Origin: a virus
DNA length: 52,275 nucleotides
IMG/VR virus record: IMGVR_UViG_3300002835_000266
Span: 1 to 52,275 of that record
Strand: one strand, 5' to 3'
Part shown: in pieces, positions 16 to 25,500 of the stretch
Layout: every line of letters starts with the position of its first letter
Numbering within the stretch: the stretch's first letter is position 1
The notes under the pieces: model-generated
Database searches by the model: none
Told to the model about the DNA's origin: nothing
The model's input: the letters and a program-made list of their open reading frames with translations, nothing else
Position numbers and translations under genes: made by a program

Positions 16-219
16 ATGAGAAAGCACGCCGATTTTGTTCTGCTGATCGACGGCAACGCCAACTGCTATGCATCCGACTACGACACCATCATCGGTCGAC
101 TCAACGAGCAGTACGAGAAAAACCCCGCCCGTGAATTCCTCATCACGCAGATCGTGGGCACAGTGGACAAACCCACGGTGCCTGTCATTCGCTGCGCCTA
201 TGGCGCAAAAAACATTTAA
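16..219 (+). CDS. Hypothetical early phage protein (67 aa)
   Basis: Small protein of unknown function at the left edge. A strong ribosome binding site (AAAGGAGGA, positions 2-10) sits just before the ATG, so the start is well supported. I see no catalytic motif, signal peptide or membrane segment; the protein begins with a short hydrophobic beta-like stretch (FVLLIDG). Its TAA stop lies inside the first dyad element (213-228), which also supplies the ribosome binding site of the next gene, so the two are probably translationally coupled. Confidence 0.75.
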   Translation: MRKHADFVLLIDGNANCYASDYDTIIGRLNEQYEKNPAREFLITQIVGTVDKPTVPVIRCAYGAKNI

Positions 220-228
220 GGTTAAAAG
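213..228 (+). promoter_or_regulatory. Dyad/RBS element, copy 1 (GG centre)
   Basis: CATTTAAGGTTAAAAG, one mismatch from the consensus CTTTTAAGGTTAAAAG. It contains the TAA stop of the upstream gene (217-219). AAGG at its centre is 8 nt before the ATG at 230, so it serves as the Shine-Dalgarno of the next gene. The two 7-nt arms are inverted repeats. Confidence 0.8.
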
Positions 229-229
229 T

Positions 230-475
230 ATGACAACCAAGATCACGCTCAACTACGAAGAACGCGAAGCACTGGCTACGGTGCGCAAGCTACTCAAGCG
301 CAACCCCGAGGCGTTCGGCCTACTCATGGCAGACATGAGCAAAGAGGCCGCAGTCAACGTACTGCTGACTGCCAAGAAAGAGATGCAAGACCTGCACCTC
401 ATGGCGCAAGCAATGGTGCTTGCAGCCAGCGAAATAGTGAAGATGGACAAACCAACCGAAGGAGAAAGCAAATGA
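230..475 (+). CDS. Hypothetical early phage protein (81 aa)
   Basis: Small, mostly helical protein of unknown function. The start at 230 is chosen because the dyad element places AAGG 8 nt upstream; an in-frame ATG at 68 would overlap the previous gene almost entirely. The sequence has a Leu/Ala-rich helical core and a charged C-terminus. Its stop overlaps the next start as ATGA (472-475), so it is co-translated with the following gene. Confidence 0.75.
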   Translation: MTTKITLNYEEREALATVRKLLKRNPEAFGLLMADMSKEAAVNVLLTAKKEMQDLHLMAQAMVLAASEIVKMDKPTEGESK

Positions 476-1194
476 ACGCACACACCAAACTCAAACTGCA
501 CCTCGACCGCTGGATGTACAAGCGTGGCCAATTCAAAGGCGACGCACCTGCCGACCCGGCACGGCGCAGCAAGTCTCACTTCCGTGTCATCCAAGGCAAC
601 GGTGGCCAGATGATCGTGCGTATGCACAACGCTGACCTGATCACTGCCTATGAAGATGGGCGCATCAGGCTTCACACCAACGGCTGGCATCACTCACCGA
701 CAACACGCGCATGTATGAACGACGCGTTGTGTTTCGCTGGGCGCGGGCACATCGGCAGCGTGCGCAAGTGGGGCACAAGCACCACCGGCATCCGTATGAA
801 CGGCAAGACGTACCGCTACTATGACAAGATGGAATTCAGCGCCGAGGGCGAGCTGCTCACTGAGCCCGAAGAATTCATGGCCAAGCGCGTGGACAGCGAT
901 GAGACTGCCGAGTTCCGCCGTGAAGTCAAAGAGTCGGGCTTTGCCGATGTGTTCCCTCTGCTGTTTCAATCAAGCACCGCTGAGGATGCAGCCTATGTGC
1001 GCAGCACCAGAGACGCCATGACCTGTGAGCACCTGACCAACCAGTGGCCAGCCGTCGTAGCCTCCATCAAATTCTCGCAGGGGTATCGCCCGGTACAGCT
1101 ACACCACGACCACAAATCTGCATGGCGGGCGCTCATTGCCCGCTGCACCAAGAACATGACAGTCATCGTCGGCACCGGCGTGACAGTCTTGTAA
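472..1194 (+). CDS. Hypothetical phage protein (240 aa)
   Basis: Protein of unknown function, preceded by GGAGAAAGCA and joined by an ATGA overlap to the upstream gene. It is basic at the N-terminus and has several His-rich stretches (WHH at about 72-74, LHHDH near 210-214), but no motif I can assign to an enzyme family. It ends 19 nt before dyad copy 2 and may close the first small transcription or translation unit. Confidence 0.75.
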   Translation: MNAHTKLKLHLDRWMYKRGQFKGDAPADPARRSKSHFRVIQGNGGQMIVRMHNADLITAYEDGRIRLHTNGWHHSPTTRACMNDALCFAGRGHIGSVRKWGTSTTGIRMNGKTYRYYDKMEFSAEGELLTEPEEFMAKRVDSDETAEFRREVKESGFADVFPLLFQSSTAEDAAYVRSTRDAMTCEHLTNQWPAVVASIKFSQGYRPVQLHHDHKSAWRALIARCTKNMTVIVGTGVTVL

Positions 1195-1212
1195 GCCGAG
1201 CGCAAGCTCATT

Positions 1213-1228
1213 GTTTTAACCTTAAAAC
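1213..1228 (+). promoter_or_regulatory. Dyad element, copy 2 (CC centre)
   Basis: GTTTTAACCTTAAAAC, a perfect inverted repeat apart from the two central bases. It lies in the 89-nt gap before the AAA+ ATPase gene. With a CC centre it cannot be a Shine-Dalgarno; that gene has its own AGGA at 1272-1275. The element is followed by AAAACTTC, as in copies 4 and 5. Confidence 0.75.
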
Positions 1229-1232
1229 TTCT

Positions 1233-1259
1233 CTCAACTTTCTCAACTTTCTCAACTCT
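1233..1259 (+). repeat. Short tandem repeat CTCAACTTT x3
   Basis: Three consecutive 9-nt units (1233-1241, 1242-1250 and 1251-1259, the last imperfect) lie between dyad copy 2 and the ATPase start. They make an unstructured pyrimidine-rich leader. Function unknown. Confidence 0.8.
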
Positions 1260-1283
1260 CTCACTTCAATCTAGGAAATCATC

Positions 1284-2345
1284 ATGAACGTCAATTTGAA
1301 ACAAGCCGCCACCCTGATCCGCAACGTGGGTTCTTCCAACACTCTGCTCTTGCGCGGCCAGCCCGGCATCGGTAAGTCCTCCATCCTGCAGACCCTGCAG
1401 CGTGAGTTGCCTGACTATCAGGTGTGCTACATCGACGTGGCCAACCTCGACCTTGGCGACTTGGGTATGCCAGTCATCGACAAAGAAACCATGACCACCA
1501 GCTACGCACCCAACGTGCGCTTCGGTGTGGGCCGTAACCAGAACCGCCCTGTCGTGCTCATGCTCGACGAGCTGGGCAAAGCGTCCCGCCCTGTGCTCAA
1601 CATGCTGCTGCCTGTCATCCTCGAACACCGCATCGGTGACGTGGAGCTGCCTACGGGGTCTATCGTTTTTGGGACTACGAATTTGGATACGGATGGGGTC
1701 GGTGACAACATCCCTGCCCATGCGTTTAACCGTATGACTGTCGTGACTGTGGCCAACCCCACGGCCGACGAGTGGCTGGAGTGGGCATCGACCCACCATG
1801 TGGCCCCAGAGATCATGGCCTTCGCCAAGCAGTATCCGCAGGTGTTCGACTGCTATGCAGACCTCGACAAGAAGGACAAGAACCCCTACATCTTCAACCC
1901 CATGACGGGCAACATTCGGGCCTTCTGCTCGCCTCGTTCGCTGGCCAAGGCATCGAACCTTATCCAGCAGCGCAGCGTGCTTGGCACTGCCTTACTGCCA
2001 GCCCTTGCGGGTACTGTCGGTGAAGCTGCAGCCCGTGACATGGAGGCCCTTGTGAATCTGGCCGATCAACTGCCGCTGTTCGAGACCATCGTGAAGCAGC
2101 CCACCAAGGCCAAGGTGCCTGACAGTGCCGGTGCGCTGTTCATCCTTGCGTTCATGCTTGCTGGTCGTGTGGACAAAGACTCGATCGACCCCGTGATGGA
2201 CTACGCAGACCGCATGGCCGCTGAGTCGTTCGAGGCGCATGCCCTGTTCATCACCGCGCTGTGCTCCAACAAGGGCAAGGTCGGCATGGCGTGTAGCAAC
2301 CGCAAGTTCACGACACACGCTGCCAAGCTGGGCAAATACTTTTAA
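1284..2345 (+). CDS. MoxR-type AAA+ ATPase (353 aa)
   Basis: AAA+ ATPase of the MoxR/CobS kind. Walker A is GQPGIGKS at residues 25-32, Walker B is VLMLDE at 91-96, and a sensor-1-like GTTN is at 130-133. MoxR ATPases usually act as ATP-driven chaperones together with a von Willebrand A (VWA) protein. Such a protein is encoded 1.6 kb downstream (3967-5172), so the pair probably works together; the substrate is unknown. The start has AGGAAATCATC before the ATG. Dyad elements bracket the gene, and its stop codon lies within copy 3. Codons 125-139 (about 1656-1700) are unusually rich in T- and G-ending codons compared with the rest. Confidence 0.9.
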   Translation: MNVNLKQAATLIRNVGSSNTLLLRGQPGIGKSSILQTLQRELPDYQVCYIDVANLDLGDLGMPVIDKETMTTSYAPNVRFGVGRNQNRPVVLMLDELGKASRPVLNMLLPVILEHRIGDVELPTGSIVFGTTNLDTDGVGDNIPAHAFNRMTVVTVANPTADEWLEWASTHHVAPEIMAFAKQYPQVFDCYADLDKKDKNPYIFNPMTGNIRAFCSPRSLAKASNLIQQRSVLGTALLPALAGTVGEAAARDMEALVNLADQLPLFETIVKQPTKAKVPDSAGALFILAFMLAGRVDKDSIDPVMDYADRMAAESFEAHALFITALCSNKGKVGMACSNRKFTTHAAKLGKYF

Positions 2346-2354
2346 GGTTAAAAG
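2339..2354 (+). promoter_or_regulatory. Dyad/RBS element, copy 3 (GG centre)
   Basis: CTTTTAAGGTTAAAAG, perfect consensus. It contains the TAA stop (2343-2345) of the AAA+ ATPase gene. AAGG is 7 nt upstream of a possible TTG start at 2355. Confidence 0.85.
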
Positions 2355-2582
2355 TTGAAACCCCTACGCTCGGGGGGCATGTACATGTTCCCTTTGTCGC
2401 ATGACATATACGCCGCCGTACCTCAACGGGTATGGTGGGCACCGTGGCGGTGGTCACTTGGGGTCATCTACTGGAGGAGCCCAGCGGATTTCGCTCCGCT
2501 CCGCACCATCGCAACCAACCTAACCAAGGCCGAGTGCATCGGCCTCATAAAACTTTTAGGATATCCCCATGAAATCCGATAG
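2355..2582 (+). CDS. Hypothetical small protein, possible TTG start (75 aa)
   Basis: Unknown function. The TTG at 2355 is favoured because dyad copy 3 places AAGG 7 nt upstream, as for other genes in this arm. An alternative is ATG 2385, preceded by a GGGGGG run at 2372-2377, giving 66 aa. The protein is Trp-rich in the middle (VWWAPWRW) with a more ordinary C-terminus. The stop lies 14 nt inside the next gene. I am fairly sure that this frame is translated and less sure where it starts. Confidence 0.55.
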   Translation: MKPLRSGGMYMFPLSHDIYAAVPQRVWWAPWRWSLGVIYWRSPADFAPLRTIATNLTKAECIGLIKLLGYPHEIR

Positions 2583-2715
2583 CCAACTGATCAGCGAGAT
2601 CGACACGGCCTTGCGCAACCTTGAGCTTTTGTTCCCCCTTGCGGGGGACCAGCTCGACCAACTCACCGCGCTGTACACAGTCACCTACATGCTCAAACTG
2701 AGGGCCATGAAATGA
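2569..2715 (+). CDS. Small helical protein (48 aa)
   Basis: Very short ORF with a good context: TTTTAGG ends 8 nt before the ATG. That sequence looks like a half-site of the dyad element (AACTTTTAGG at 2551-2560) reused as a ribosome binding site. The product is a Leu-rich amphipathic helix of unknown function. Its stop overlaps the next ATG (ATGA at 2712-2715), which supports expression as part of a coupled chain. Confidence 0.6.
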   Translation: MKSDSQLISEIDTALRNLELLFPLAGDQLDQLTALYTVTYMLKLRAMK

Positions 2716-2819
2716 CCTATACCTTGTGGCGTTACTGCCCACGTACCGGGTTCCGCGAGACGCTCAACTTCGACGGACCCCTTCGCAACAAACCAAAAGG
2801 ATGGCGCGTATGCCAGTGA
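2712..2819 (+). CDS. Very small protein (35 aa)
   Basis: It starts in an ATGA overlap with the preceding gene and its stop overlaps the start of the next gene at 2810. It contains two Cys and several aromatic and basic residues (LWRYCPRTGF). Function unknown. Support comes from exact junction overlaps at both ends rather than from similarity. Confidence 0.5.
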   Translation: MTYTLWRYCPRTGFRETLNFDGPLRNKPKGWRVCQ

Positions 2820-2968
2820 CCAAACAAGACAAGCGGGAGTTCCGGGGCTACTGCGAGCGGTGCACCGACAAACAACTGCGCAACGTGCTGATCAAAGAGA
2901 CACTGGCACGGCGCACCAGCTACGCGCAGATTGCGCGTGAAGTAATGAAAGAAAGGGGCATCACATGA
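2810..2968 (+). CDS. Small basic protein (52 aa)
   Basis: Basic protein with one CERC pair (CxxC) near residues 15-18 and a helical C-terminus. Start 2810 is chosen because AAAAGG (2795-2800) lies 9 nt upstream; the in-frame ATG at 2801 would be too close. The C-terminal TSYAQIAREV segment resembles the first helices of an HTH, but one motif is not enough to call a DNA-binding protein. Stop overlaps next start (ATGA). Confidence 0.6.
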   Translation: MPVTKQDKREFRGYCERCTDKQLRNVLIKETLARRTSYAQIAREVMKERGIT

Positions 2969-3174
2969 ACTTCTCTGAACTCGAATACATCCTGATGATC
3001 GCAGTGGCTGTGCTGCTGTGGCGCAACTCTGTGCTGCGCGGTGCTGCCGCGCAGGAAGAACGCAGAGCCAACCGGTACGCCAATTGGATGATGGGCATCT
3101 ACAACAAAAAGGGCCGTGTCGTGCACAAGGACAACGCCTACTACTATGAGGAGACTCCCGATGCTAATCATTGA
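2965..3174 (+). CDS. Small membrane protein (69 aa)
   Basis: Residues 8-19 (YILMIAVAVLLW) form a short hydrophobic segment, followed by an Arg-rich stretch and a charged C-terminus. This fits a single-pass inner-membrane protein with the C-terminus in the cytoplasm. Joined by ATGA overlap to the upstream gene. Function unknown. Confidence 0.65.
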   Translation: MNFSELEYILMIAVAVLLWRNSVLRGAAAQEERRANRYANWMMGIYNKKGRVVHKDNAYYYEETPDANH

Positions 3175-3355
3175 AACAACCAGCAACGGCCAGCGAATGG
3201 TCAAGGTCAAGAAGGACTGGCACCCCGGTCGCATGGGGTCGCAGTACACAGCCCCACGACGCAACTTTGTGACGGGCGACAGCGCAGAGCTTGTGCAGCG
3301 CGCACTGCTCAAGAAACCCATCACCACGCTCACCCCGTGGTGGGTACGTCGTTAA
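3161..3355 (+). CDS. Small basic hypothetical protein (64 aa)
   Basis: Start at 3161 is preceded by GAGGAGACTCCCG, a strong ribosome binding site, and overlaps the end of the upstream membrane-protein gene by 14 nt. The product is basic (many Lys/Arg) with no known motif. Its TAA stop directly abuts dyad copy 4. Confidence 0.65.
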   Translation: MLIIETTSNGQRMVKVKKDWHPGRMGSQYTAPRRNFVTGDSAELVQRALLKKPITTLTPWWVRR

Positions 3356-3371
3356 CTTTTAAGCTTAAAAC
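3356..3371 (+). promoter_or_regulatory. Dyad element, copy 4 (GC centre)
   Basis: CTTTTAAGCTTAAAAC, immediately after the TAA stop of the upstream gene. The next gene has its own GGAG (3376-3379), so this copy is not a ribosome binding site. It is followed by TTCT, like copy 2. Confidence 0.75.
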
Positions 3372-3385
3372 TTCTGGAGAAAATT

Positions 3386-3937
3386 ATGAGTGAAAACGCA
3401 TTCGACATGGTGCGCAAGATACGCCACCTTCCCGGCTTGAAGCTGACTGCAACGCTCGACCCAACGCGGGTTTCCAAGCGCGTGAAGACCGCCGCGCAGA
3501 AGATGCTTCGCACTGGTGTTCTGACAAATGGATATGCCAGCCAGTCTCGTATGCTGGCCCATCAATTGTTAAAGGATGCTCACGTAGAAGCAGTGGCATC
3601 CAACACCAAGTGGGGGGTCAGGATTCTCGCCGTTCCGCAACTGACAAAAGATGACCGAGCGCAGATCGCGGAGTTCATCAATGCTGCGCGGATGATCGAG
3701 CTTGCCGACATGGCTTCCACCAAGCAGGCTTCGTACATCCACGATCGGTACACCAGCATACTGACCCAGTTCGAGACGCACAAGGGCGTGCACTTCTCGT
3801 TCAACTTGTATCAGCCAACACTGCAATCACAGATTGTTGACCTGATATCCGCACGGCGCACACCCGAGCGGGTCAAAGCCCACGAGGCGCTGGCCGACAA
3901 GCTCGACAGCACCGAACCTTTCCACATCAACTTTTAA
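3386..3937 (+). CDS. Hypothetical phage protein (183 aa)
   Basis: Soluble, mostly helical protein of unknown function, preceded by CTGGAGAAAATT. It lies between the AAA+ ATPase and the HExxH/VWA gene and is bracketed by dyad copies 4 and 5; its TAA stop (3935-3937) is inside copy 5. Position suggests a role with the MoxR/VWA pair, but nothing in the sequence proves this. Confidence 0.75.
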   Translation: MSENAFDMVRKIRHLPGLKLTATLDPTRVSKRVKTAAQKMLRTGVLTNGYASQSRMLAHQLLKDAHVEAVASNTKWGVRILAVPQLTKDDRAQIAEFINAARMIELADMASTKQASYIHDRYTSILTQFETHKGVHFSFNLYQPTLQSQIVDLISARRTPERVKAHEALADKLDSTEPFHINF

Positions 3938-3946
3938 CCTTAAAAC
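3931..3946 (+). promoter_or_regulatory. Dyad element, copy 5 (CC centre)
   Basis: CTTTTAACCTTAAAAC. It contains the stop codon of the upstream gene and sits 20 nt before the VWA gene start. That gene uses a separate AAGGA at 3955-3959. The AAAACTTC extension is shared with copies 2 and 4. Confidence 0.8.
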
Positions 3947-3966
3947 TTCAACCCAAGGAAATCACC

Positions 3967-5172
3967 ATGAACGTCCAAGATCGCATCAAGAAGGCCCACA
4001 TCAGCATCATGAACCACAAAAAGTTCTGTGCCTATGCTGGTGTCCTTGCCTGTGGCAAAGTCATTGTCGATGGGTCCGTGCCCACTGCAGCCACCAACGG
4101 CTGGGATGTGCGGTACAACCCCGAGTTCATCACCGAGAACATGAGCACCGACCCCGAGCTGCGCTTTCTTGTGCTGCACGAAGCAACGCACAAAGCCTAT
4201 CGCCACATGGCCACATGGAAGGCGCTGCATGAGCAGAACGCACGCATGGCCAACATCGCAGCCGACCACTTCGTCAACCTCATACTGCAAGACACCGATG
4301 CCGGTGAAGGCTTTATCAAGATGCCCAAGCTCGGCGTTCAACCCGACCCTAAGTACCGTGGCTGGTCTGTGCGGATGATCTACGCCGACCTCATGAAGCA
4401 GCAGCAACAACAAGAACAAGGCGCGGGGGAAGACGGCCAAGGTGACGAGGGCGGTCAAGGTGGTGCGGGTGATGGGCTCGACGAGCACGATTGGGACGGC
4501 AACCCCGCCAGTGGTGACCCCGCCAAGGAGCAGGAGCAAGCCAACGAGATTCAACGCGCCATACGCCAAGGCGAAATCATGCGCAAGAAAATGGCGGGCA
4601 AAGGTGCGGGTAATTCGGACGGCATGTTCGGTGACCTCATGGCCCCCAAGATCGACTGGAAGAAAGTGCTGCGCGAGTTCATCACTGAGACCTGTGCAGG
4701 TCGTGACGAGTCCTCATGGCGCAAGCCCAACCGCCGCTATCTCGGCATGGACATTTACATGCCCTCGATGGTGGGCACAACTATGACGGAGCTGGTGATC
4801 GGCTTCGACACATCGGGCTCGATCTTTGGCAGCAACGAGATGACGCGGTTCGTGTCTGAGATTAAGACCATCATCGAAGATGTCAAGCCAAGCAAGGTGC
4901 ATGTGATCTATTGGGACACCGAAGTCGCAGGGCACCAGACGTTTGATGAAGGCCAGTTCGCTGTGCAAGACCTCAAGATCAAAGGCGGTGGGGGCACGGA
5001 CGGCTCAGTCCTGTTCACCTACCTGCGAGACAAGAACATCAACCCTCAAGCCATTGTGCAGTTCACCGACGGATACGTTGGCGATTGGGGCCGCACCGAT
5101 GTACCCACACTGTGGGCTGTGACGTCTGACTTGCAAGCGCCGTTCGGTACGACCATCAAGGTGGAAGTATGA
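3967..5172 (+). CDS. Putative HExxH metallopeptidase-like / VWA-domain protein (401 aa)
   Basis: Two-part protein. The N-terminal part has an HEATH zinc-binding motif (residues 71-75) as in the DUF2201-type putative metallopeptidases. A low-complexity acidic, Gln- and Gly-rich linker follows at about 140-200. The C-terminal part is a VWA-like domain with MIDAS motif DTSGS (281-285) and TDG (367-369), which should bind a divalent metal and a partner. VWA proteins commonly pair with MoxR AAA+ ATPases such as the one at 1284-2345, so a chaperone or remodelling pair is likely. Whether the HEATH motif is catalytic is unknown. AAGGAAATCACC precedes the ATG. The stop overlaps the next start (ATGA at 5169). 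Confidence 0.88.
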   Translation: MNVQDRIKKAHISIMNHKKFCAYAGVLACGKVIVDGSVPTAATNGWDVRYNPEFITENMSTDPELRFLVLHEATHKAYRHMATWKALHEQNARMANIAADHFVNLILQDTDAGEGFIKMPKLGVQPDPKYRGWSVRMIYADLMKQQQQQEQGAGEDGQGDEGGQGGAGDGLDEHDWDGNPASGDPAKEQEQANEIQRAIRQGEIMRKKMAGKGAGNSDGMFGDLMAPKIDWKKVLREFITETCAGRDESSWRKPNRRYLGMDIYMPSMVGTTMTELVIGFDTSGSIFGSNEMTRFVSEIKTIIEDVKPSKVHVIYWDTEVAGHQTFDEGQFAVQDLKIKGGGGTDGSVLFTYLRDKNINPQAIVQFTDGYVGDWGRTDVPTLWAVTSDLQAPFGTTIKVEV

Positions 5173-5429
5173 AGCGCCTTAGCAAGCGGTGGGAAGCGCT
5201 CAAGCGCGTAACGAGCCGAGCCCTGTATCGGTCATTTTTGCCGGAGATTAATGGAGACGGGATGTGCTGGGGCTGCATCGAAGCCAAGTCGCTCGATGGG
5301 CCGTTCCGATTGGAGATATGGAACCACACTGAAGGGGAGTGGGAGTTTGTGCTGGACTTCCCCACATTCAAAGAAGCCAAGGCAGTCGGCCGACTGCTGG
5401 CTGGCGTAGCCCTCAGCAAAGACATGTGA
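5169..5429 (+). CDS. Hypothetical protein, paralogue 1 (86 aa)
   Basis: Starts in an ATGA overlap with the VWA gene, preceded by GGTGGAAGT. It appears to be a diverged duplicate of the next gene: both are 86 aa, begin MK-L-KRW, have a Trp-rich middle and end with an AKA-x-GR-x-LA helix. Trp-rich beta strands followed by a C-terminal helix suggest a small alpha/beta fold. Function unknown. Confidence 0.7.
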   Translation: MKRLSKRWEALKRVTSRALYRSFLPEINGDGMCWGCIEAKSLDGPFRLEIWNHTEGEWEFVLDFPTFKEAKAVGRLLAGVALSKDM

Positions 5430-5438
5430 GGTGGAAGT

Positions 5439-5699
5439 ATGAAAGAGCTTGCAAAACGCTGGTCCCGGACATCGCCGTGGGCCCCAAGTTCATGGATACT
5501 CATGGACTCCACGCTGGGTTGGAATTGGGCCCTCATACGACGTAGCAACGACGACACCGAGTGGGAGTTGCGGGTGTGGAAAGTAAACAAGAACTGCAAC
5601 AAAATCTTCGGAGTTTGGGAGTGGGTCACCAACATCAAATCCCTGCGCGCTGCGAAAGCAGCGGGGCGCATCCTTGCCGCCAAGGCAATAAACTTTTAA
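5439..5699 (+). CDS. Hypothetical protein, paralogue 2 (86 aa)
   Basis: Same length and layout as the preceding gene and nearly the same leader (GGTGGAAGT before ATG), consistent with a tandem duplication. Trp-rich, with the AKAAGRILA helix at the C-terminus. Its TAA stop (5697-5699) is embedded in dyad copy 6. Function unknown. Confidence 0.7.
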   Translation: MKELAKRWSRTSPWAPSSWILMDSTLGWNWALIRRSNDDTEWELRVWKVNKNCNKIFGVWEWVTNIKSLRAAKAAGRILAAKAINF

Positions 5700-5708
5700 G
5701 GTTAAAAG
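5693..5708 (+). promoter_or_regulatory. Dyad/RBS element, copy 6 (GG centre)
   Basis: CTTTTAAGGTTAAAAG, perfect consensus. It contains the upstream stop and puts AAGG 8 nt before the ATG at 5710. Confidence 0.85.
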
Positions 5709-5709
5709 T

Positions 5710-5838
5710 ATGAAATACAAAGGCCCTGCCGAACCCATACCAACCAGCCGCCGATCATGGATCGATGTGGTTGAAATCATCGTGTACGTCTGCTGTGTAG
5801 GCGTGCTGTTAATGGACATACTTATTTGGAGACCGTGA
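5710..5838 (+). CDS. Small membrane protein (42 aa)
   Basis: Short ORF with a dyad-type ribosome binding site. Residues 17-40 are strongly hydrophobic with two adjacent Cys, so this is probably a single-pass membrane peptide. The TGA stop overlaps the next ATG (TGATG at 5836-5840). Function unknown. Confidence 0.6.
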   Translation: MKYKGPAEPIPTSRRSWIDVVEIIVYVCCVGVLLMDILIWRP

Positions 5839-6236
5839 TGGGATACAGAAGTGATTTGGTAGTGTTGATCTACCCCGATACCGAAACCGCCGCCGATGCG
5901 GCACCCAAGTACGAGCAGCTCAAAGTGCTGCTGGCTACGACGTTCAAGGATGTGGTAGCGGACAAGTACTTCGAAAGCTGCATGACGTGGATCGACGAGT
6001 CCCATGTGCTGAAGTTCAAGTTCGATGATGTGAAGTGGTATCCGAGCTTTTCGGATGTGCAGAGGTTCGAGAAGATGCTGGCCGTGTTCAGTGGCGATGA
6101 CGCGGATGGCATTGAGGGGTACTGCACAGAGTTCATCCGTATTGGCGAGGAGTCTAATGACATAGAGCTACGCAACTCGGGTGACAACTGCGAATGCCAC
6201 CTGCAGGTTCGTAGCGAAATCGATTGCAACGTATGA
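5838..6236 (+). CDS. Hypothetical phage protein (132 aa)
   Basis: Start 5838 has GGAG 6 nt upstream and overlaps the previous stop; an in-frame TTG at 5826 is less likely. The protein starts with a beta strand (DLVVLIYPDT), is acidic and has four Cys, three of them near the C-terminus. No family recognised. ATGA overlap with the next gene. Confidence 0.7.
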   Translation: MGYRSDLVVLIYPDTETAADAAPKYEQLKVLLATTFKDVVADKYFESCMTWIDESHVLKFKFDDVKWYPSFSDVQRFEKMLAVFSGDDADGIEGYCTEFIRIGEESNDIELRNSGDNCECHLQVRSEIDCNV

Positions 6237-6523
6237 CCATCAAAAATCTAATCCGCAGCTGGCTCGGCATGAACGATACCCGCGACACGCTCATGCTCAA
6301 CGCCGCCCCCACGCCTCATCACGAGCGACACCACACGGCCACGCGCACTTTCGTGCTGCACGAAGCGATGAACGGGACATACATCGTGTTCACACGTCAG
6401 CGGTACAACCCGAACGGTCCCGACTTGTTCGAGCAGACCGTGTACATCGTGCAGCCCGGCGAGGCGTTGATTGATGCGATCAGTACCGTGTTGGTCTTAA
6501 CAGCCAACGGAGCCGCCCCGTGA
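6233..6523 (+). CDS. Hypothetical phage protein (96 aa)
   Basis: Starts in ATGA with the preceding gene; an in-frame TTG at 6224 is unlikely. A His-rich stretch lies at about 29-34 (HHERHH) and a beta-rich C-terminal half follows. Function unknown. It ends in a GTGA overlap with the next gene. Confidence 0.65.
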   Translation: MTIKNLIRSWLGMNDTRDTLMLNAAPTPHHERHHTATRTFVLHEAMNGTYIVFTRQRYNPNGPDLFEQTVYIVQPGEALIDAISTVLVLTANGAAP

Positions 6524-6819
6524 CCATCGACGACTTCGAGTGGGTCGAAAAAGGGTTCGATACGTGGCTCCTCGTGCACAAGCGACACGACATGACCATT
6601 GCAAGACTGCAATCGTACGAAGGGTGGAACGTGATTGTGCTAGGGGTGTACTCCCGCATCGACCCACTTGTCGTCGAGTCTTTCGACGCAGCCAAAGCCG
6701 TTGCCACCATCACAGCAATCAACAACATGGAGAACTTTCCTGATGCCAACAATTACCGCACAAGAGCTCTCAGAGCAGGACCCCAAAAGATTCCAAAAGG
6801 AGTATTCAAAATGGACTGA
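6520..6819 (+). CDS. Hypothetical phage protein, GTG start (99 aa)
   Basis: GTG start at 6520 overlaps the upstream stop (GTGA). Acidic alpha/beta protein of unknown function. Its last 77 nt overlap the start of the next gene in another frame, an unusually long overlap for this arm, so one boundary could be misjudged. Confidence 0.6.
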   Translation: MTIDDFEWVEKGFDTWLLVHKRHDMTIARLQSYEGWNVIVLGVYSRIDPLVVESFDAAKAVATITAINNMENFPDANNYRTRALRAGPQKIPKGVFKMD

Positions 6820-7381
6820 GTACAACCTCGACTACGACTGGTGGGAGTACGCGCAGGACCACCTGAAAGAGAAGCTGGAACCTGCGGGTGTAAGCGTTCG
6901 CACGCTCCAGTTCAGCCTGTCGTACAGCCAAGGCGACTACGCCACGTTCGAGGGCTCGATCAACGTGGCCATGTGGATGGATGTGACCAAGGACGGGCCC
7001 GACACCGAGGACACGCCGACCTACGCCGAGAAGTACCCGGCCTTGCGACTGGCGATGGAGGACTACGGCGAGCACGCCAGCGTCACGGCATACAACCGAT
7101 CTAGTGCGCGTGTCAATCTGGATGGTAGTTGTGTGGGCAACACGTATGCCGCTGGCATCTTTGCAGGGCTGGAGTCAGAGGCGTGGGACGAGTTGATCGA
7201 GGACCAGTACGCCAGCGCAGGGCTTGAGAAAGCACTGCAGGACTACGTGGACGACATATCCCGACAACTCTACCGCGACCTGCGTGCCGAGTACGAGCAC
7301 CTGAATAGCGAGCAATCGTTTATCGAGTCGTGCGAATGCAACGACGTAACTTTTGAAATTGAAGAGGAGTGTGAAGCATGA
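6743..7381 (+). CDS. Phage 'antitoxin-like' family protein (212 aa)
   Basis: Acidic protein with a W/Y/D-rich helix (YDWWEYAQDHLKEKL) followed by a beta segment LSYSQGDYATFEGS. This pattern resembles a phage protein family I remember being annotated as antitoxin of a toxin-antitoxin stability system, whose members share an FSQGDG-like signature. The name is historical and the function is not established. GGAG lies 10 nt before the ATG. Two Cys sit near the C-terminus (ESCECND). ATGA overlap with the next gene. Confidence 0.65.
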   Translation: MPTITAQELSEQDPKRFQKEYSKWTEYNLDYDWWEYAQDHLKEKLEPAGVSVRTLQFSLSYSQGDYATFEGSINVAMWMDVTKDGPDTEDTPTYAEKYPALRLAMEDYGEHASVTAYNRSSARVNLDGSCVGNTYAAGIFAGLESEAWDELIEDQYASAGLEKALQDYVDDISRQLYRDLRAEYEHLNSEQSFIESCECNDVTFEIEEECEA

Positions 7382-7635
7382 AATACCAAATTTCCATGTG
7401 CGGCAGAAATGTTGTTTTGACTGAGGCCCAACTGGAGCTGCTGGTAACGGCAGTGCAAGACGCCGACCAGATCAATGAGAAATACGTGGGCAGCGGGGCT
7501 GGGTCCCAAGGGTCCGGCAACAACTACGTTCCGGTGATCGAGCGCAAGCTGCTGCACGACTGGCTGCAGGTAAACGTCATGCCAGATGACTACGTGGAGG
7601 CCGTCAAGCTCTCCATGAAATTGACCTCCGCTTGA
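7378..7635 (+). CDS. Hypothetical phage protein (85 aa)
   Basis: Starts in ATGA with the preceding gene. Small alpha/beta protein with a Gly/Ser-rich loop (GSGAGSQGSG) in the middle. Function unknown. Its TGA stop is 5 nt before dyad copy 7. Confidence 0.65.
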   Translation: MKYQISMCGRNVVLTEAQLELLVTAVQDADQINEKYVGSGAGSQGSGNNYVPVIERKLLHDWLQVNVMPDDYVEAVKLSMKLTSA

Positions 7636-7640
7636 CAAAA

Positions 7641-7656
7641 CTTTTAAGGTTAAAAG
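7641..7656 (+). promoter_or_regulatory. Dyad/RBS element, copy 7 (GG centre)
   Basis: CTTTTAAGGTTAAAAG, perfect consensus, just after the upstream stop. AAGG is 9 nt before the ATG at 7659. Confidence 0.85.
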
Positions 7657-7658
7657 AA

Positions 7659-8582
7659 ATGAACTACATCACTGATACCCAACCCAACACCGTAGCCGGT
7701 GTCGCTCGCTCCGCCATGATGGTGGACCTGCACATCTCTGTGTACTCCGGCCGCAAGCAGGACAAGACCACGCAAGGCGAGGTCACCACGGCCAAGGGCT
7801 CCGGCTCGAAGAAGGCTGCGTCCGTCTACAAGAACCTGTTCGCTGAGTGCAAAGAGCTGGACGCACTGACCAAGTTCCAAGCCCGCGCCCGTGCTGAGCA
7901 CTACCGCCTGACACTGCCGTGGAACGACCAAGGCGCACGGCTGCTGCCCACTGCCTCACTGCTGGAGTACCAGCAGACCATGGGCCGATACCGCAACGAG
8001 TTCGATCGACTGGTTGATGCGTTCCTTGACAAGTACGACACGCTGGTGGCGGCTGCTGCGTTCCAGCTCGGCACGCTGTTCGACCGCAAAGAGTACCTGT
8101 CCCGCGCTCAGGTGGCGCTGCGCTTTCGCATGGAGTCTAGCTTCACGCCACTGCCTACCTCGGGTGACTTCCGCCTTGACGTGGAGAGCTCAGTGCAGCG
8201 TGATCTGGTCGAGCAGTACGAGCGCCGCATGGAGGCCAAGCTGGCACAGGCTAACCAAGACTCGTGGAGCCGCTTGCATGAGGCCCTGCTGCGCCTGTCT
8301 GACCGGCTGGTGATCGAGGAGGACGGCACCAAGCGCAAGTTCCACGACACCATGGTCACCGGCGCGCTGGAGCTGTGTGACCTGCTCACCGTCATGAACG
8401 TGACCAAAGACCCGCAGCTTGAGTCAGCGCGCCGTAAGGTTGAGGGCGTATTGTCCGGTGTAACACCAAAGGAATTGAGAGATGAGCACAGCACACGAGT
8501 CCAAACCAAGCAGCGAGTCGATGAAATCCTTGATGCCTTCGACTGGGGGATGGGGAGTGATGATGCCGGACTGGAGGGATGA
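7659..8582 (+). CDS. Hypothetical protein, possibly DUF3150-like (307 aa)
   Basis: Long, mostly alpha-helical, charged protein without enzymatic motifs. Length and composition recall DUF3150-type proteins, which I remember near MoxR ATPase and VWA genes in proteobacterial mobile DNA. If that is right, this is the third member of the MoxR (1284) and HExxH/VWA (3967) set. The resemblance is from memory and not verified. Start 7659 is fixed by dyad copy 7; an in-frame upstream start at 7632 is unlikely because it lies inside the previous gene. Confidence 0.6.
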   Translation: MNYITDTQPNTVAGVARSAMMVDLHISVYSGRKQDKTTQGEVTTAKGSGSKKAASVYKNLFAECKELDALTKFQARARAEHYRLTLPWNDQGARLLPTASLLEYQQTMGRYRNEFDRLVDAFLDKYDTLVAAAAFQLGTLFDRKEYLSRAQVALRFRMESSFTPLPTSGDFRLDVESSVQRDLVEQYERRMEAKLAQANQDSWSRLHEALLRLSDRLVIEEDGTKRKFHDTMVTGALELCDLLTVMNVTKDPQLESARRKVEGVLSGVTPKELRDEHSTRVQTKQRVDEILDAFDWGMGSDDAGLEG

Positions 8583-8877
8583 AGATGCCGCACGCCAATA
8601 CAGCAACAAACGATACCCACACATGACAACACCCAATGAACGCGAATACAGATACGAAGAACGGTACGACGAGTACATGCTCAAGTGCTGGCACGAAGGT
8701 GTTGAGACCTCATGGCGCGGCTATGTGGACAGTCGGCCTGAATGGCTTGAGCGCATCCTCAATACCGCCCTTGTTGGGGGCCACCTCAAGCGTGTCTCCC
8801 AACCCCCGCCCGACGCCATCGTCTGGTTCACCACCGACCTCGGCAACAACCTCATAACCTTTCTGGAGCTGACATGA
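8482..8877 (+). CDS. Hypothetical phage protein (131 aa, start uncertain)
   Basis: The frame is supported by its ATGA junction with the next gene. Start 8482 has AAGGA 8 nt upstream but overlaps the previous gene by 101 nt. Starts at 8560 or 8563, preceded by GGGGAGTG, would give about 104 aa with only about 20 nt of overlap. The protein is Trp/Tyr/Arg-rich (YRYEERYDEYM). Function unknown. Confidence 0.6.
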   Translation: MSTAHESKPSSESMKSLMPSTGGWGVMMPDWRDEDAARQYSNKRYPHMTTPNEREYRYEERYDEYMLKCWHEGVETSWRGYVDSRPEWLERILNTALVGGHLKRVSQPPPDAIVWFTTDLGNNLITFLELT

Positions 8878-9038
8878 TTTATGAAAACCTGACCGATGAA
8901 GAACTACTGCGAGTAGCTGACGGCCAAGCAGGGCTTATCAAAGCCCTTGCCGAACGGCTGGAGATGCGCTTGCGCGACATCAAAGAAATCGACAACCCCA
9001 CACAGGTCGAAGACGACCGCCAACTCAAATTGTTTTAA
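8874..9038 (+). CDS. Small helical protein (54 aa)
   Basis: Short ORF in an ATGA overlap with the previous gene. Predicted amphipathic helix rich in Leu, Glu and Arg, ending KLF at the TAA, which is inside dyad copy 8. Function unknown. Confidence 0.65.
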   Translation: MIYENLTDEELLRVADGQAGLIKALAERLEMRLRDIKEIDNPTQVEDDRQLKLF

Positions 9039-9047
9039 GGTTAAAAG
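9032..9047 (+). promoter_or_regulatory. Dyad/RBS element, copy 8 (GG centre)
   Basis: GTTTTAAGGTTAAAAG, one outer mismatch. It contains the upstream TAA (9036-9038) and puts AAGG 10 nt before the ATG at 9051. This is the last intergenic copy. Confidence 0.85.
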
Positions 9048-11916: not shown

Positions 11917-12168
11917 ATGAGCCAAATTGAAATGTTCCCCGACCTGCAGGCTAGTGCGCTTGACGTGCAAGTTGCTGGCGACCACTACAAAACGCTGGCT
12001 ATCCAGCCTGTTGAGTACATCCATGCCAACAAGATTGGCTACTTCGAGGGCAACGTGATCAAATACGTGTCCCGCTGGCGCAGCAAGAACGGCATCAAAG
12101 ACTTGGAAAAAGCCAAGCACTACATTGAGCTGCTGATCGAATTGGAGACCCGCCATGGCAACGCCTGA
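11917..12168 (+). CDS. DUF3310 / SaV-like family protein (83 aa)
   Basis: Clear match to the DUF3310 pattern: DHYK near residues 22-25, IQPVEYI, GNVIKYVSR, then DLEKAKHYIE. The family is common in phage genomes and includes the C-terminal part of T7 gp1.7, a nucleotide kinase. A role in nucleotide metabolism is therefore plausible but not shown. It stands at the head of the replication module and overlaps the VRR-NUC gene by 14 nt. Confidence 0.85.
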   Translation: MSQIEMFPDLQASALDVQVAGDHYKTLAIQPVEYIHANKIGYFEGNVIKYVSRWRSKNGIKDLEKAKHYIELLIELETRHGNA

Positions 12169-12538
12169 AAGCCTTGTAAAGAAAAAAATCCATGCGATCC
12201 TTAAGGAGCGCGGGGCGTACGCCGTCAACTACATCGGCGGCATCTCCGCCAACAACGGCACGCCGGACATCCTTGCGTGCCTCCACGGGCGGTTCGTTGC
12301 GATCGAGGCCAAGGCTGGCAAGAACAAGCCAACCGACCTGCAAACTCTTAACCTTAAAAGAATTGACGATGCGGGGGGCCTTGCGTTCGTCATCAACGAA
12401 ACCAACCTGAGTGTGCTGGAGGTGATGCTCGATGACCCGACCCACGCCCGATCCAATTACAAGCTTTTTGCAAAGCCACTCACCGAAGCTGACGCCGGAG
12501 CAAGAGCGCCAACTAAACGCAAACCTAAAGAGGCGTGA
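12155..12538 (+). CDS. VRR-NUC domain nuclease (127 aa)
   Basis: Small PD-(D/E)XK-type nuclease of the VRR-NUC family. GTPD (35-38) supplies the acidic residue, AIEAK (49-53) the E-x-K, and Q63 and GG (74-75) fit the rest of the fold. Stand-alone phage members are typically structure-specific nucleases, possibly used in recombination or junction processing. A dyad-like sequence (12345-12360) lies within the coding region. The tail after residue about 92 is basic and may be dispensable. Confidence 0.88.
   Translation: MATPESLVKKKIHAILKERGAYAVNYIGGISANNGTPDILACLHGRFVAIEAKAGKNKPTDLQTLNLKRIDDAGGLAFVINETNLSVLEVMLDDPTHARSNYKLFAKPLTEADAGARAPTKRKPKEA
12345..12360 (+). promoter_or_regulatory. Dyad-like sequence inside the VRR-NUC gene
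   Basis: CTCTTAACCTTAAAAG, one mismatch from the consensus, but coding (LQTLNLKR) and not at a gene junction. It could be a chance match or a site for whatever binds the other copies. Confidence 0.35.
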
Positions 12539-18316: not shown

Positions 18317-19222
18317 ATGAGCAATATGACACTTTTCAAATCCGGTTCCGTCGTTCCTGACTATCTGCGCGAAGCCGCAGACTCCACAACCAAAGACATT
18401 GCAGGCTCCTCTGGCGGCAAGCAAATTTCCATCAAGGGCGGCGTATGGCGCATGGTGGTGGGCGGCGAAGAGGTCGCCAAGAACGAAGATCGCGCCATGA
18501 ACTTGGTGGTGATCTCTGCCGGTAAGGGCGTGTCCCGCACGTTCTACGCTGAGAAATACGAAGAAGGCAAAGACATCAAGCCCGCGTGCTGGTCGGCCGA
18601 AGGCGTTGTGCCCAACGAAGAAGTCACCGAGCCACAAGGCAAGACCTGCGCTACCTGCCCACAAAACATTGAGGGCTCCGGTGACGGCAAGTCCCGCGCC
18701 TGCCGATACAGCAAGCGTTTGGCTGTGGCTTTGGAGAGCGATATCGGTGGCAACATCTACCGCCTGTCGGTTCCCGCCAAGTCGTATTTCGGCAAGGCCG
18801 AAGGCGACAAGATGCCTCTGCAGGCCTACGGCAAGTTCCTGTCTGGCCACGGTATCCCAATCACTGGTGTGGTGACCGAAGCTCGCTTTGACACTGCCGA
18901 AGCTGTGCCGGTGCTGAAGTTCCGCGCTGTGCGCCCACTGACGCAAGAAGAGTGGACGCTGGCCAAGGAGCAGAGCCAGACCGAAGAAGCCATGCAGGCG
19001 GTCGAGTTCAAGATGGTGCCAAGCAAGAAGGAAAACCAGCCGGCGCTGCCCGCAGCGTTTAAGGACGCCGACGTGCCCGCCAAGGCCGCTCCCGAGAAGG
19101 TGGAGGCCGAAGAGGTTGCTGAGCCCGTCAAGCGCCCCGCCAAGGCAAAAGCCGAAGCAACCCCTGCTGCATCCAAGAACGTGGCTGACATCCTGAACGA
19201 CTGGTCGACCGACGATGAGTGA
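18317..19222 (+). CDS. Probable ssDNA-binding protein with Cys cluster (301 aa)
   Basis: N-terminal domain with a Cys cluster (C in PACWSAEG, CATC, then ACRYSKR) likely to bind zinc, a beta-rich middle, a Lys/Ala/Pro/Glu-rich linker (about 230-285) and the acidic tail DILNDWSTDDE. A flexible linker with an acidic C-terminus is the hallmark of ssDNA-binding proteins such as SSB and T7 gp2.5. The assignment rests on architecture and position next to the primase-helicase. Preceded by AGGAAATCAAC. Confidence 0.65.
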   Translation: MSNMTLFKSGSVVPDYLREAADSTTKDIAGSSGGKQISIKGGVWRMVVGGEEVAKNEDRAMNLVVISAGKGVSRTFYAEKYEEGKDIKPACWSAEGVVPNEEVTEPQGKTCATCPQNIEGSGDGKSRACRYSKRLAVALESDIGGNIYRLSVPAKSYFGKAEGDKMPLQAYGKFLSGHGIPITGVVTEARFDTAEAVPVLKFRAVRPLTQEEWTLAKEQSQTEEAMQAVEFKMVPSKKENQPALPAAFKDADVPAKAAPEKVEAEEVAEPVKRPAKAKAEATPAASKNVADILNDWSTDDE

Positions 19223-19463
19223 GCGAACCCGAGGGTACGACTCCCTATTCATCCGCAGGGTAGAAGACGCTGATCAGAAGCCCACTGTTATGCAGTTGGC
19301 GGATGCATGCATCGAGAAAAACGTGGCGATCACTGACGTGGCTGCCATGTTCGGTGTGTCGCGCGCGACCATCTACAACTGGATGACTGGCCGGACCTCA
19401 CCGCACCCTCGGCACATGGCGCTTATCCCGAAGATCACAGCCCGCTTGCTCAAGCGTAAGTGA
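19215..19463 (+). CDS. Cro/HTH-like regulator (82 aa)
   Basis: Classic helix-turn-helix at about 40-60 (VAAMFGVSRATIYNWMTG). Basic C-terminus. It overlaps the previous gene by 8 nt and is followed at once by a strong terminator. A repressor or regulator of early transcription is likely; the operator is unknown, and the dyad elements are one candidate. Confidence 0.75.
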   Translation: MSERTRGYDSLFIRRVEDADQKPTVMQLADACIEKNVAITDVAAMFGVSRATIYNWMTGRTSPHPRHMALIPKITARLLKRK

Positions 19464-22365: not shown

Positions 22366-22575
22366 GTGCAGCAGTTCACCCTGCATGGGGTGGACTACTT
22401 CATCCAATGGCACCTGCTCTCAATCGGGGCGTCATTCTTCCTGCCCACCACGGCCACCAAGGCCCAAGCCGCCCGCGCCCTGCGGCCGTACGCCCGTCAT
22501 CTGGGTATACAGCTGCAGGTGGGCAACCGCTGCGAGTACGGACGCTACGGCGTCCGCGTGTGGCGCGTTTACTGA
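22366..22575 (+). CDS. Small hypothetical phage protein (69 aa, start uncertain)
   Basis: Pattern FTLHGVDYFIQW, GASFFLPTTAT, then EYGRYGVRVWRVY resembles a small phage family with the same W-x-L...G-S-F-F-P...G-V-R-V-W layout. GTG 22366 follows the primase stop by 1 nt, but no ribosome binding site is clear; ATG 22312 is an alternative. The TGA stop lies inside the opposing gene (7-bp convergent overlap). Function unknown. Confidence 0.65.
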   Translation: MQQFTLHGVDYFIQWHLLSIGASFFLPTTATKAQAARALRPYARHLGIQLQVGNRCEYGRYGVRVWRVY

Positions 22576-25500
22576 CGGATCGCGGTCTTGGCCTCGCGCA
22601 CCCAGCCGACCAGCTCGACCTCCATCTGCTTGATTTCCTTGAGCTCGGCTTCGCGCTCTTCGGCCGACATATCCGCAGCGGCGTCCTTGCCGTTGAGGAA
22701 CTTGCGGTAGGCCCGGGTGCGCTCAAGCTGCTCCAGCGTTGAGTTGATTGCCGACTCCATCATCAGCACGTCTGCGTTCTTCTCTGCGTAATCGACGGCC
22801 CGGTCAAGGTCCGTCTTCATCAGCTCGGCCAGCGTGGCGTTGGCGCGGCCAACCTTCTCCCGCTCGTCATAGAACTCAGTCATGCGGCGTGTGCCCACGG
22901 GGTCGTACAGGTAGTTGCTCAGGAGCGCGTACTTGTGCAGTGGGCGGTCAACTCGCGTTGGGTTCAGCAGGCTGTCAGTCGTGGCCACCAGCAGCCCGGC
23001 AGTCGAGCCGAAGTACCCGCTCAGTGCGTTGTCCACCAAGATGGGCGAGATTTTGTCCACACCCACCACGTCACGGCTGAAGTTGGCAATGGCGATGGCC
23101 AGCTCCGACGTGTTCGACGCCCGGCGCATGCTGGGGTCCTGCTGCTTTTGGTAGATGCCTTCCAGCTCCCGGCCAGTGAAGAACGAGTAGTTGGTCCATG
23201 CTTCCAGCAAAGGTTTGGCAGCCTGCGGGATAGGCACCGTGCGGCCGACGTACTGCTCCATGATGTAGGCCAGAGCCGTGCGGGTGGCCTCCCATGCAGT
23301 CTGCTCCTCTGGGGTGCCTTGGCGGCGCATGTACTCGACGATGCGCTCCGGGATGACCTTGAACAGCGCACCCAGTTCGGTTGGCACCGGCAGTTTGTAG
23401 CCGCCCGGCAGTATCCAGTTGCTGTCCCGGGTGCGCAGGTCCATCTCGTTGTAGTCTTCGTCGTCATCCCCCTTGCCGAGTGCGTACAGCGTGCTCAGTG
23501 TCATGGCGATGGCAGCCCGGCTGTAGAACATGCGACGCGCTTGGGCCCGGCCCACTGAGGAGCTGGAGTCCTTGCCGGATGCGGCGCGGTACAGCACGTC
23601 CATACCTTGGATGTATGCGTTGAAGAACGGGATGGTGGTCACCATGGCACCGACGAAATCGGAAGCGCCACGGCGGCGGAAGTTGATGAATTCCCGGGCC
23701 CGGGTCTGCGCCAGCAGTTGATCGCCTTGCGACTCCTTGATCGTCTGGTCGTAGATGGCCTTGCGCACGGCCAAGTCAGACGCCCGGGTGATGCCCTCCA
23801 GTCGGTGCATGAGGGTCTCGAACTTGCCGCGTGGGCGGTAGCCGATGTCCTTGAGCAGCGACACTGCAGGCTTACCCTGCTGGAAGTCGAATTCACCTGT
23901 GAGACCCAGAGCCTCCATCTCGCTCACGGTGGGGTGGCGGATACCGCGCAGCTCAGCCAGTGCAAGCCCGCCGAAGTTGGAGAGCGTCATGCGCAGCAGT
24001 GCGCCGGGATTCTTCACACCGGAGGTCATGATGGCCCGCTGCACGTCGTCCGTCACCTGCTTGAGCGCAAAGGGCGGCAGGATCGTCACCGACTTGCGCA
24101 GCACGTTGGACACTTGGCCCAGCACCTGCAGCCACTTGGCCTTGGGTGGGTTGAGTTCTTGGAAGGCTGCCGCGTCGTAGCTGGACGGCAGGTCCCAGTA
24201 CATGAGCTCGCCCTTGACGTAGGCCTTGGCCGTGCGGTGCTTGGTGCCGGGCATGCGCGACGGCTTGCCGGTGTACCCCAAGTCCTCCAGACTGCGCAGG
24301 GTTTGCACTCGGGCATCGTTGGTCATAACTTGGCCAACCATCCAGCCCATGGTGTTGAGGTAGTTCTCGAACACGTTGCCTACAGGCCGATCAAACGAGC
24401 CCTTGAGCTCGGGGTTCTTGGTCAGCATCAATGGCGCACGCCCGGTGGTCCGCTTGACTGCAGTGAAGCGCTCTGCGAAGTCATCAATGCGGTCGAACGG
24501 CACGTAGCCGATCACGGACTTCCACTCGTCGCCCTGCTCCTTGGACAGCCGGCCCACTTTCACCATCTGGTCGACCAGCGCAATACGGGGCTTGTCCATG
24601 GCAGCGTTCATCTCTGCAAACGCTGGGTCTGCGTTGTACTCAGCCACCAGCAGCGCGCGGTCTGCATCCTTGATGTGTTTGGGGAAGTCGGGGTTGGTCT
24701 TTAGCACCTGCTCCAAACGGTAGGCCTCGATGACCCGGCTGGCAAACTGCTCGGCGCGCTCTTTGCTGCGGCCGGTGCGCTCCCCCCATGCGTAGATCAG
24801 CGGGAACACGTCGGTGGGCGCACTGCCATCGGCGGACTTGACCACTTTGTACTGGCCTGTTTCCTTCTCCTTTTGCAAGGAGCCCTCTTGGAAGTACGCC
24901 AGCAGCAGCTTGGAGTAGTCCTGCGCCTGACGGTACAGGCCCATGGGGTTGAGCTTGCCCAAGCTGTCGCGCACCGCGCCGTTGAAATGCCCGCTGAGCT
25001 TGTCCTCAACGGCAGCAGCAGAGTCGGCCACAGCCACGCGGAACTTGACCCCACGGCTTGGCTCGGCCGCAGCGCGCTCGCTGTCCTGTGCCCCTTTGAA
25101 CATGCCCAGCACGCCGCGCTTGTCGATCGGTGTCAGATCGCCCATGCTGTCAACCACGTCTTCTGCGGTGTAGCTCTTGGCAAACTGCTTGCCGGTCTGC
25201 TTCTGCGCGCCCTCCATCTCCTCTTTGGTCAGGCCCAACAGGGTGTCGCCTACGCGCAACGCTTCGGACAGGGCGGTGTCGGCCTTGGCCGGAATGCCCA
25301 GCAAGTCACGTACGTAAGTGACGAACTTGTTCCATGCAGTCTGACCCTTGTAGGGGATAGTCTCCATGTACTGCTGCATCTCGCGGTTGGTCATGGACCA
25401 GACGAGAATCTCGTGCGAATCCGCAAGCGCGTTGTTCATACCGTTGTAATACCGCTGCTCGAAGTCGGTCAGCTTTGTGCCCGAGGCTGCGCGGTCGTTA

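Follow-up and report, generated by a model that had tools for sequence, protein, structure and literature searches.

The window analysed here comprises the whole of an uncultured viral record, IMGVR_UViG_3300002835_000266 of IMG/VR (52,275 bp), and its early region carries a short palindrome that recurs between genes. Its proteins include a MoxR-like ATPase, a VWA protein (3967-5172, plus strand; the VWA label is our own family reading), a DNA polymerase, a helicase, a primase-like protein and structural proteins. A megablast search of the early region against phage isolates returned no match, and thus no near isolate relative; the MoxR-like and VWA proteins have only distant isolate matches (25-31%), several of them in phages which we take to be N4-like podoviruses. 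With these two proteins as queries about 80 related loci were gathered, and 26 contigs were taken whole. PHROGs and some isolate records label the VWA/metallopeptidase-like protein an HNH endonuclease, which is probably a misannotation. We consider it likely, from comparison of these sequences, that the palindromes are double-stranded DNA operators of the early operon which serve transcriptional control and whose most likely ligand is a dimer of c32, a protein encoded at the start of that operon. The computed support covers the network of sites, its restriction to the early region, the concerted switching of both arms, the absence of a pairing constraint and the covariation with a helix of c32.

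Searching the window with CTTTTAANNTTAAAAG, a pattern itself derived from the window, and allowing up to three mismatches gave nine matches where 0.53 were expected; none of 100 dinucleotide shuffles reached nine, and control palindromes with permuted half-sites had no match in the same genome. All nine lie within the first 12.4 kb, a stretch of rightward gene calls, and the late minus-strand region (from about 22.5 kb) has none. A sequence-only reading had placed eight copies at 213, 1213, 2339, 3356, 3931, 5693, 7641 and 9032, exactly where we find them (Table 1), and had assigned all to gene junctions. This holds for those eight, against a background junction fraction of 0.18, but not for the ninth match at 12345, which lies inside a conserved gene. 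The latter recurs at that position in 7 of 23 genomes with class-specific changes, a conservation that codon constraint could explain. The dyad described earlier, CTTTTAA-NN-TTAAAAG, is better written as a core TTTTAA-NN-TTAAAA with S on either side and A/T-rich flanks (AA-S-core-S-TT); its outer C..G is not preserved as a pair. Promoter-like matches in the window show no excess over chance.

Table 1. Copies of the palindrome in the window
Feature	Sequence	Position	Context
Palindrome	CATTTAAGGTTAAAAG	213..228	Junction; holds TAA of gene 16-219; AAGG 8 nt before ATG 230
Palindrome	GTTTTAACCTTAAAAC	1213..1228	5' junction of the MoxR-like ATPase gene (1284)
Palindrome	CTTTTAAGGTTAAAAG	2339..2354	Holds TAA of the MoxR-like gene; AAGG 7 nt before TTG 2355
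Palindrome	CTTTTAAGCTTAAAAC	3356..3371	Junction, genes 3161-3355 / 3386-3937
Palindrome	CTTTTAACCTTAAAAC	3931..3946	Holds TAA of 3386-3937; 5' junction of the VWA gene (3967)
Palindrome	CTTTTAAGGTTAAAAG	5693..5708	Holds TAA of 5439-5699; AAGG 8 nt before ATG 5710
Palindrome	CTTTTAAGGTTAAAAG	7641..7656	5' junction of gene 7659-8582
Palindrome	GTTTTAAGGTTAAAAG	9032..9047	Holds TAA of 8874-9038; 5' junction of the 9051 gene
Ninth match	CTCTTAACCTTAAAAG	12345..12360	Inside gene 12155-12538

Lineage-specific palindromes in related phages

Each lineage among the related contigs has a palindrome of its own, the copies of which agree within a genome. The half-sites are TTTTAA, TT[C/A]TAA, T[C/A]TTAA and [A/G]TCTAA with a 2-bp spacer and ATCTAA, TTCTAA and TTTTAA with a 3-bp spacer; further lineages have TTTTAACNNGTTAAAA, CCTAACATGTTAGG, GCCTAACANTGTTAGGC or CTGATACGTATCAG, and CCTAACA-type half-sites are among those seen. 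Overall the spacer spans 0-3 bp and is usually 2 bp. With one mismatch allowed, a contig holds 5-20 sites, again in the early region. The distance to the next ATG-like codon proved uninformative, and gene calls were used instead: in 24 genomes with their own gene calls, 251 of 293 sites fall at gene junctions (71.5 expected). A site of the genome's own lineage is present at the 5' junction of the MoxR gene in 21 of 23 genomes, at that of the VWA gene in 19 of 24, and before the counterpart of gene 7659-8582 in 14 of 24. Since the same junctions are used across lineages, both arms must change jointly and all copies in concert. This is most evident between L038 and G021, whose aligned DNA is mostly 84-89% identical: all eight orthologous sites have switched, one genome having TTCTAACNNTTAGAA-type and the other TTTTAACNNGTTAAA-type copies, and a single hybrid copy occurs in G021, at 9915. 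On the VWA tree the palindrome class changes repeatedly, with T[CA]TTAA and TT[CA]TAA interleaved, TTTTAA in two places and [AG]TCTAA in three. The relatives thus lend strong support to the earlier suggestion of a DNA operator for one regulator.

Many copies spread over a limited region might also be expected if the sites served DNA organisation (condensation, segregation, replication or packaging) and not transcription. We think this quite unlikely, as the sites cluster where one co-directional early gene meets the next, and at the c32 promoter. Judged from sequence comparison, tens of uncultured phages would carry the candidate regulator-operator system.

Two further loci deserve mention. 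The 68-kb contig of G010 (L126-L129) has a palindrome GGCACCNNNGGTGCC 12 times, besides its CCTAACATGTTAGG sites. A search of GTDB genomes found a 70% VWA relative, L166, on a 4.7-kb contig in an uncultured Armatimonadetes bin; this is probably a binned phage contig, and we therefore make no host call for these phages. A search of ten near-complete relatives (records of 61-68 kb) yielded neither a tyrosine integrase nor a serine recombinase; these phages may nevertheless be temperate as plasmid-type prophages.

Double-stranded site or RNA element

The sequence-only reading also regarded the dyad as a translational-coupling cassette that doubles as stop codon and ribosome binding site and can fold in RNA as a stem-loop exposing the Shine–Dalgarno sequence (SD). 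Five window copies do hold the upstream TAA within the left arm (213, 2339, 3931, 5693 and 9032), and in five AAGG stands 7-10 nt ahead of a start codon (213, 2339, 5693, 7641 and 9032); the start at 2355 is a TTG whose open reading frame (ORF) is present in only 5 of 26 relatives. The proposed stem forms in four of the nine copies, about half, and fails to fold in the other five. The SD overlap is limited to GG-centred copies of TTTTAA lineages: CC-, GC- and TA-centred copies provide no SD, and it is missing in every other palindrome class, TT[CA]TAA genomes for instance having a separate GGAG as SD downstream of the palindrome.

Covariation of the arms, which had been proposed as a check, gives a divided answer: the two arms do change together between genomes, but base pairing between them is not kept. 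In TT[CA]TAA sites the core-flanking position is C..C in 91 of 129, while the next pair outward, A-T, is retained in 103. TTCTAA and TTATAA half-sites are mixed in 24 of 131 such sites, giving C..T; pairing would disfavour such mixtures, and their frequency implies that the arms need not pair. Likewise, [AG]TCTAA sites have an unpaired A..C in 30 cases and a wobble G..T in 8. As pairing is not kept, the target is double-stranded DNA and not RNA, in contrast to an RNA hairpin or translational operator. Furthermore, free hairpins would not need one shared sequence per genome, and the copies at the c32 promoter lie upstream of the −35 box and hence outside the transcript. Taken together we regard an RNA element as very improbable. 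The overlap with stop codon and SD in TTTTAA lineages is a secondary use of an A/T-rich site at gene ends, where TAA and AAGG come into use because the core is rich in A and T.

Inverted repeats in the early region could alternatively act as promoter hairpins of an injected N4-type virion RNA polymerase (vRNAP), and a 1914-aa protein of the window (22569-28313, minus strand) matches the PHROG virion RNA polymerase (E 5.5e-17). However, the only PDB sequence match of this protein is an internal virion protein (9sfn_G) and not the N4 mini-vRNAP, and its identity as a polymerase is doubtful. N4 promoters require a GC-rich heptamer and G at −10 and −8 (PMC4496689). The sites described here have A/T-rich arms with unconserved pairing and occur in both orientations, unlike vRNAP promoters with their GC-rich hairpin, 3-nt loop and fixed orientation, making this the most improbable of the explanations considered.

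c32, a candidate reader of the palindrome

The c32 family consists of proteins of about 180 aa encoded by the first rightward gene of the early operon, and a member is found in most motif-bearing contigs that reach far enough left. Attention was drawn to c32 by its low identity in the comparison of L038 with G021, 54% as against 67-95% for the other three early proteins with full-length alignments; two small ORFs neighbouring c32 are also less than 50% identical. In an unselected scan, palindrome class was predicted by 1-nearest-neighbour from 10-residue windows over the protein families. Among families with at least 20 taxa the top window was the predicted recognition helix of c32 (accuracy 0.83, ceiling 0.97, 29 taxa). 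With matched taxa its accuracy was reached by only 6 of 4525 windows from 17 other families, and the families with such windows have 13 taxa. The association is clearest in the two residues before a near-invariant Tyr, which are AS with TTTTAA and VS with T[CA]TTAA (each 28/28 in agreement), TE with [AG]TCTAA and ATCTAA, and other pairs with TT[CA]TAA (each 27/28). An instructive case is G019, placed among TT[CA]TAA phages on the VWA tree, which has TTTTAA sites together with the helix of L008, KSTAASYQS. The rule relating helix to palindrome was then fixed in writing before new c32 loci were fetched, and 26 of the 28 held-out contigs that it covers and that have a recognisable site agree with it.

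An AlphaFold2 model of c32 has helices at 61-75 and 81-97 with a predicted local distance difference test score (pLDDT) of about 90; by sequence and spacing they are predicted to form a helix-turn-helix (HTH) arrangement, a single HTH-like pair, and a C-terminal helical pair in the model could serve dimerisation. The family has no significant Pfam match and no PHROG or PDB sequence match, and it is absent from the isolates searched (0 matches). A fold search with the model returned one match, an uncharacterised protein of an uncultured phage.

Several observations weigh against c32 as the reader of an operator network. The record of the window ends before the c32 gene, which would lie off its left end, and its own regulator is thus not seen; nor did G010 and G014, the most distant of the genomes with sites, yield a c32. 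The model has no significant PDB fold match that would back DNA binding. Two held-out contigs, L193 and L199, are misses, and since many of the 26 fits closely resemble training sequences, several held-out contigs being near-identical to them, and seven contain a single site, the held-out result is weaker than 26/28 suggests. The association is also confounded by descent: on well-supported branches each class provides 1-3 independent pairs, none of them contrary, a number too small for a sign test to reach significance. Parsimony class changes on the whole-c32 tree are not fewer than on other trees, which is why the window-level test was adopted, and any real association should therefore be local to the helix. 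Lastly, a plain symmetric dimer does not require the orientation bias relative to transcription that the asymmetries of the sites display; both orientations occur, and despite the symmetric core strand sense seems to matter to some degree.

The operators might instead be read by another protein, for example of the c33 family, whose gene likewise stands where the early operon begins. A plausible HTH in c33 is indicated by matches to Pfam Mor (E 0.0016) and to the PHROG late transcriptional activator (1.9e-5), and residue y of its helix (R-[VI]-y-Q) differs between some palindrome classes. Nevertheless c33 was not found in L038, G003, G009 and G021, all of which bear palindromes, its best window reaches 0.76 against 0.88 for the c32 helix in the same 25 taxa, and T[CA]TTAA and TT[CA]TAA genomes largely share one c33 helix. 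Its weaker window accuracy and the sharing of its helix between classes led us to reject c33 as the main determinant of palindrome class, and a reader other than c32 appears unlikely. c33 itself is a two-domain protein, with a possibly ribbon-helix-helix-like N-terminus and a Mor/C-like (sigma-r4-like) HTH, encoded at L025:5226-5711 and L006:3267-4115 + 4139-4381, and duplicated or split in G001, L008 and L036; PDB and viral fold searches with its model gave no significant PDB match.

Three proteins of the window had been proposed as dyad binders. The 82-aa HTH_3 protein at 19215-19463 (plus strand) is rejected as the regulator, its recognition helix being near-invariant across the family, essentially GVTRATVYNW in all palindrome classes; it probably reads a fixed site, to judge from this constancy. 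The 9051 protein likewise drops out, as its putative helix does not differ between G006 (TTATAA) and G024 (TCTTAA). For the 14932 protein a Pfam scan gave a sub-threshold sigma-r4 match.

Mode of action and comparison with known systems

A sigma-70-like promoter (TTGACA-N17-TAnnnT-like) lies upstream of c32 in 24 loci, with TTGACA as the −35 box in 23. In 17 of the 24 a palindrome of the locus's own class, with 0-3 mismatches, starts 26-29 nt before the −35 box; in the remaining loci it starts 18-19 nt (four), 32 nt (two) or 12 nt (one) before it. We infer that c32 binds these sites as a dimer and thereby controls transcription. Each operator would consist of two 6-bp half-sites, usually 2 bp apart. 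c32 made early would first bind its own promoter region, providing feedback on the early promoter, and as it accumulates it would occupy the junction sites and there halt or slow the polymerase inside the early operon, as stoperators do, or mask the operon in another way. The often imperfect site at the c32 promoter would suit a response that depends on concentration, and a preference for gene ends would leave coding sequence undisturbed.

The position of the promoter site upstream of the −35 box suits an activator as well as a repressor, which counts as a further point against the model. Indeed, the main alternative to repression or road-blocking would be that c32 acts as an activator or as an anti-termination or elongation factor. 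The promoter site is centred about 20 bp upstream of a strong sigma-70 −35 box, with alternative positions about 9 bp away, and the orientation bias of the sites also fits this view. On the other hand the early promoters already have consensus −35 boxes, and a promoter was found at only 1 of 120 junction sites. We give this alternative a modest chance.

The sequence-only reading knew of no described element of this form, thereby overlooking two systems of mycobacteriophages. Cluster A phages with repressors such as those of L5, Bxb1 and TipsytheTRex have more than 20 short stoperators per genome, located in short gaps between genes and at promoters, with an orientation bias; their sequences are lineage-specific and vary along with the repressor, whose own promoter region also has a site (PMC6550527, PMC9283540). 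Stoperators are asymmetric 13-bp sites recognised by a monomer that has two DNA-binding domains, and the phages are temperate, the repressor maintaining lysogeny. The system described here resembles them in its many copies in short operon gaps, in the site at the c32 promoter and in a site sequence that varies by lineage with the regulator (here by covariation with c32). It differs in that the sites are palindromic with a variable spacer, the c32 model has one HTH-like helix pair, c32 is without Pfam, PHROG or PDB match, and ten near-complete relatives yielded no integrase or resolvase. Similarly scattered through an early region are the conserved inverted repeats (CIR) of Streptomyces phage phiC31, which are palindromic repressor sites, in another type of phage and with another repressor.

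In cluster K phages (TM4, Anaya, Pixie) start-associated sequences (SAS) with an SD core are repeated a few nucleotides before the starts of non-structural genes, and the upstream stop codon can fall inside the repeat; SAS are asymmetric 13-mers with the SD 3-7 nt from the start, separate from the inverted repeats of the extended elements (ESAS; 17-bp arms, 4-13 bp spacer), which differ between subclusters and were proposed as DNA-binding sites with no regulator named (PMC3203893). A consensus inverted repeat that differs between lineages is shared with ESAS, but here a single palindrome replaces SAS and ESAS, SD overlap is limited to GG-centred copies, and a candidate regulator has matching variation. 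Stoperators and ESAS are thus the nearest analogues in layout and in lineage-specific change, and as far as the sequences indicate, palindromic symmetry, a new protein family and the absence of an integrase or resolvase would set the present system apart.

What was an anonymous repeat has become a candidate regulator-operator system, with naturally matched helices and sites that might reveal a recognition code. Palindrome and c32 look like a fast-evolving regulatory lock and key, and the long-standing question of how a regulator with many sites changes its specificity becomes testable. We put at about even the chances of a wider view, in which undescribed c32 regulators read a network across the whole operon, a few helix residues set the half-site, and 5-20 sites are rewritten together even between phages about 84-89% identical in DNA and seemingly unable to integrate. 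In such phages superinfection immunity does not offer the obvious explanation for a distributed operator network; if this view is true, the fast switching would imply selection for mutual insulation of co-infecting phages, outside classical lysogenic immunity.

The surroundings of c32 have further features. A conserved block CTCAGCGTAAGCGG...GGAGTCCCA...GGTGGGGTC lies about 100-200 nt upstream of c32, directly before its promoter, in nearly all lineages inspected (G001, G002, G018, G006, G008, G022 and others), with no Rfam match at the gathering threshold in L025. The leader that separates c32 from the early genes holds 2-4 copies of a second palindrome, TGTTACANTGTAACA-like, in L025/G018 and also in G006, G007, G022 and L201.

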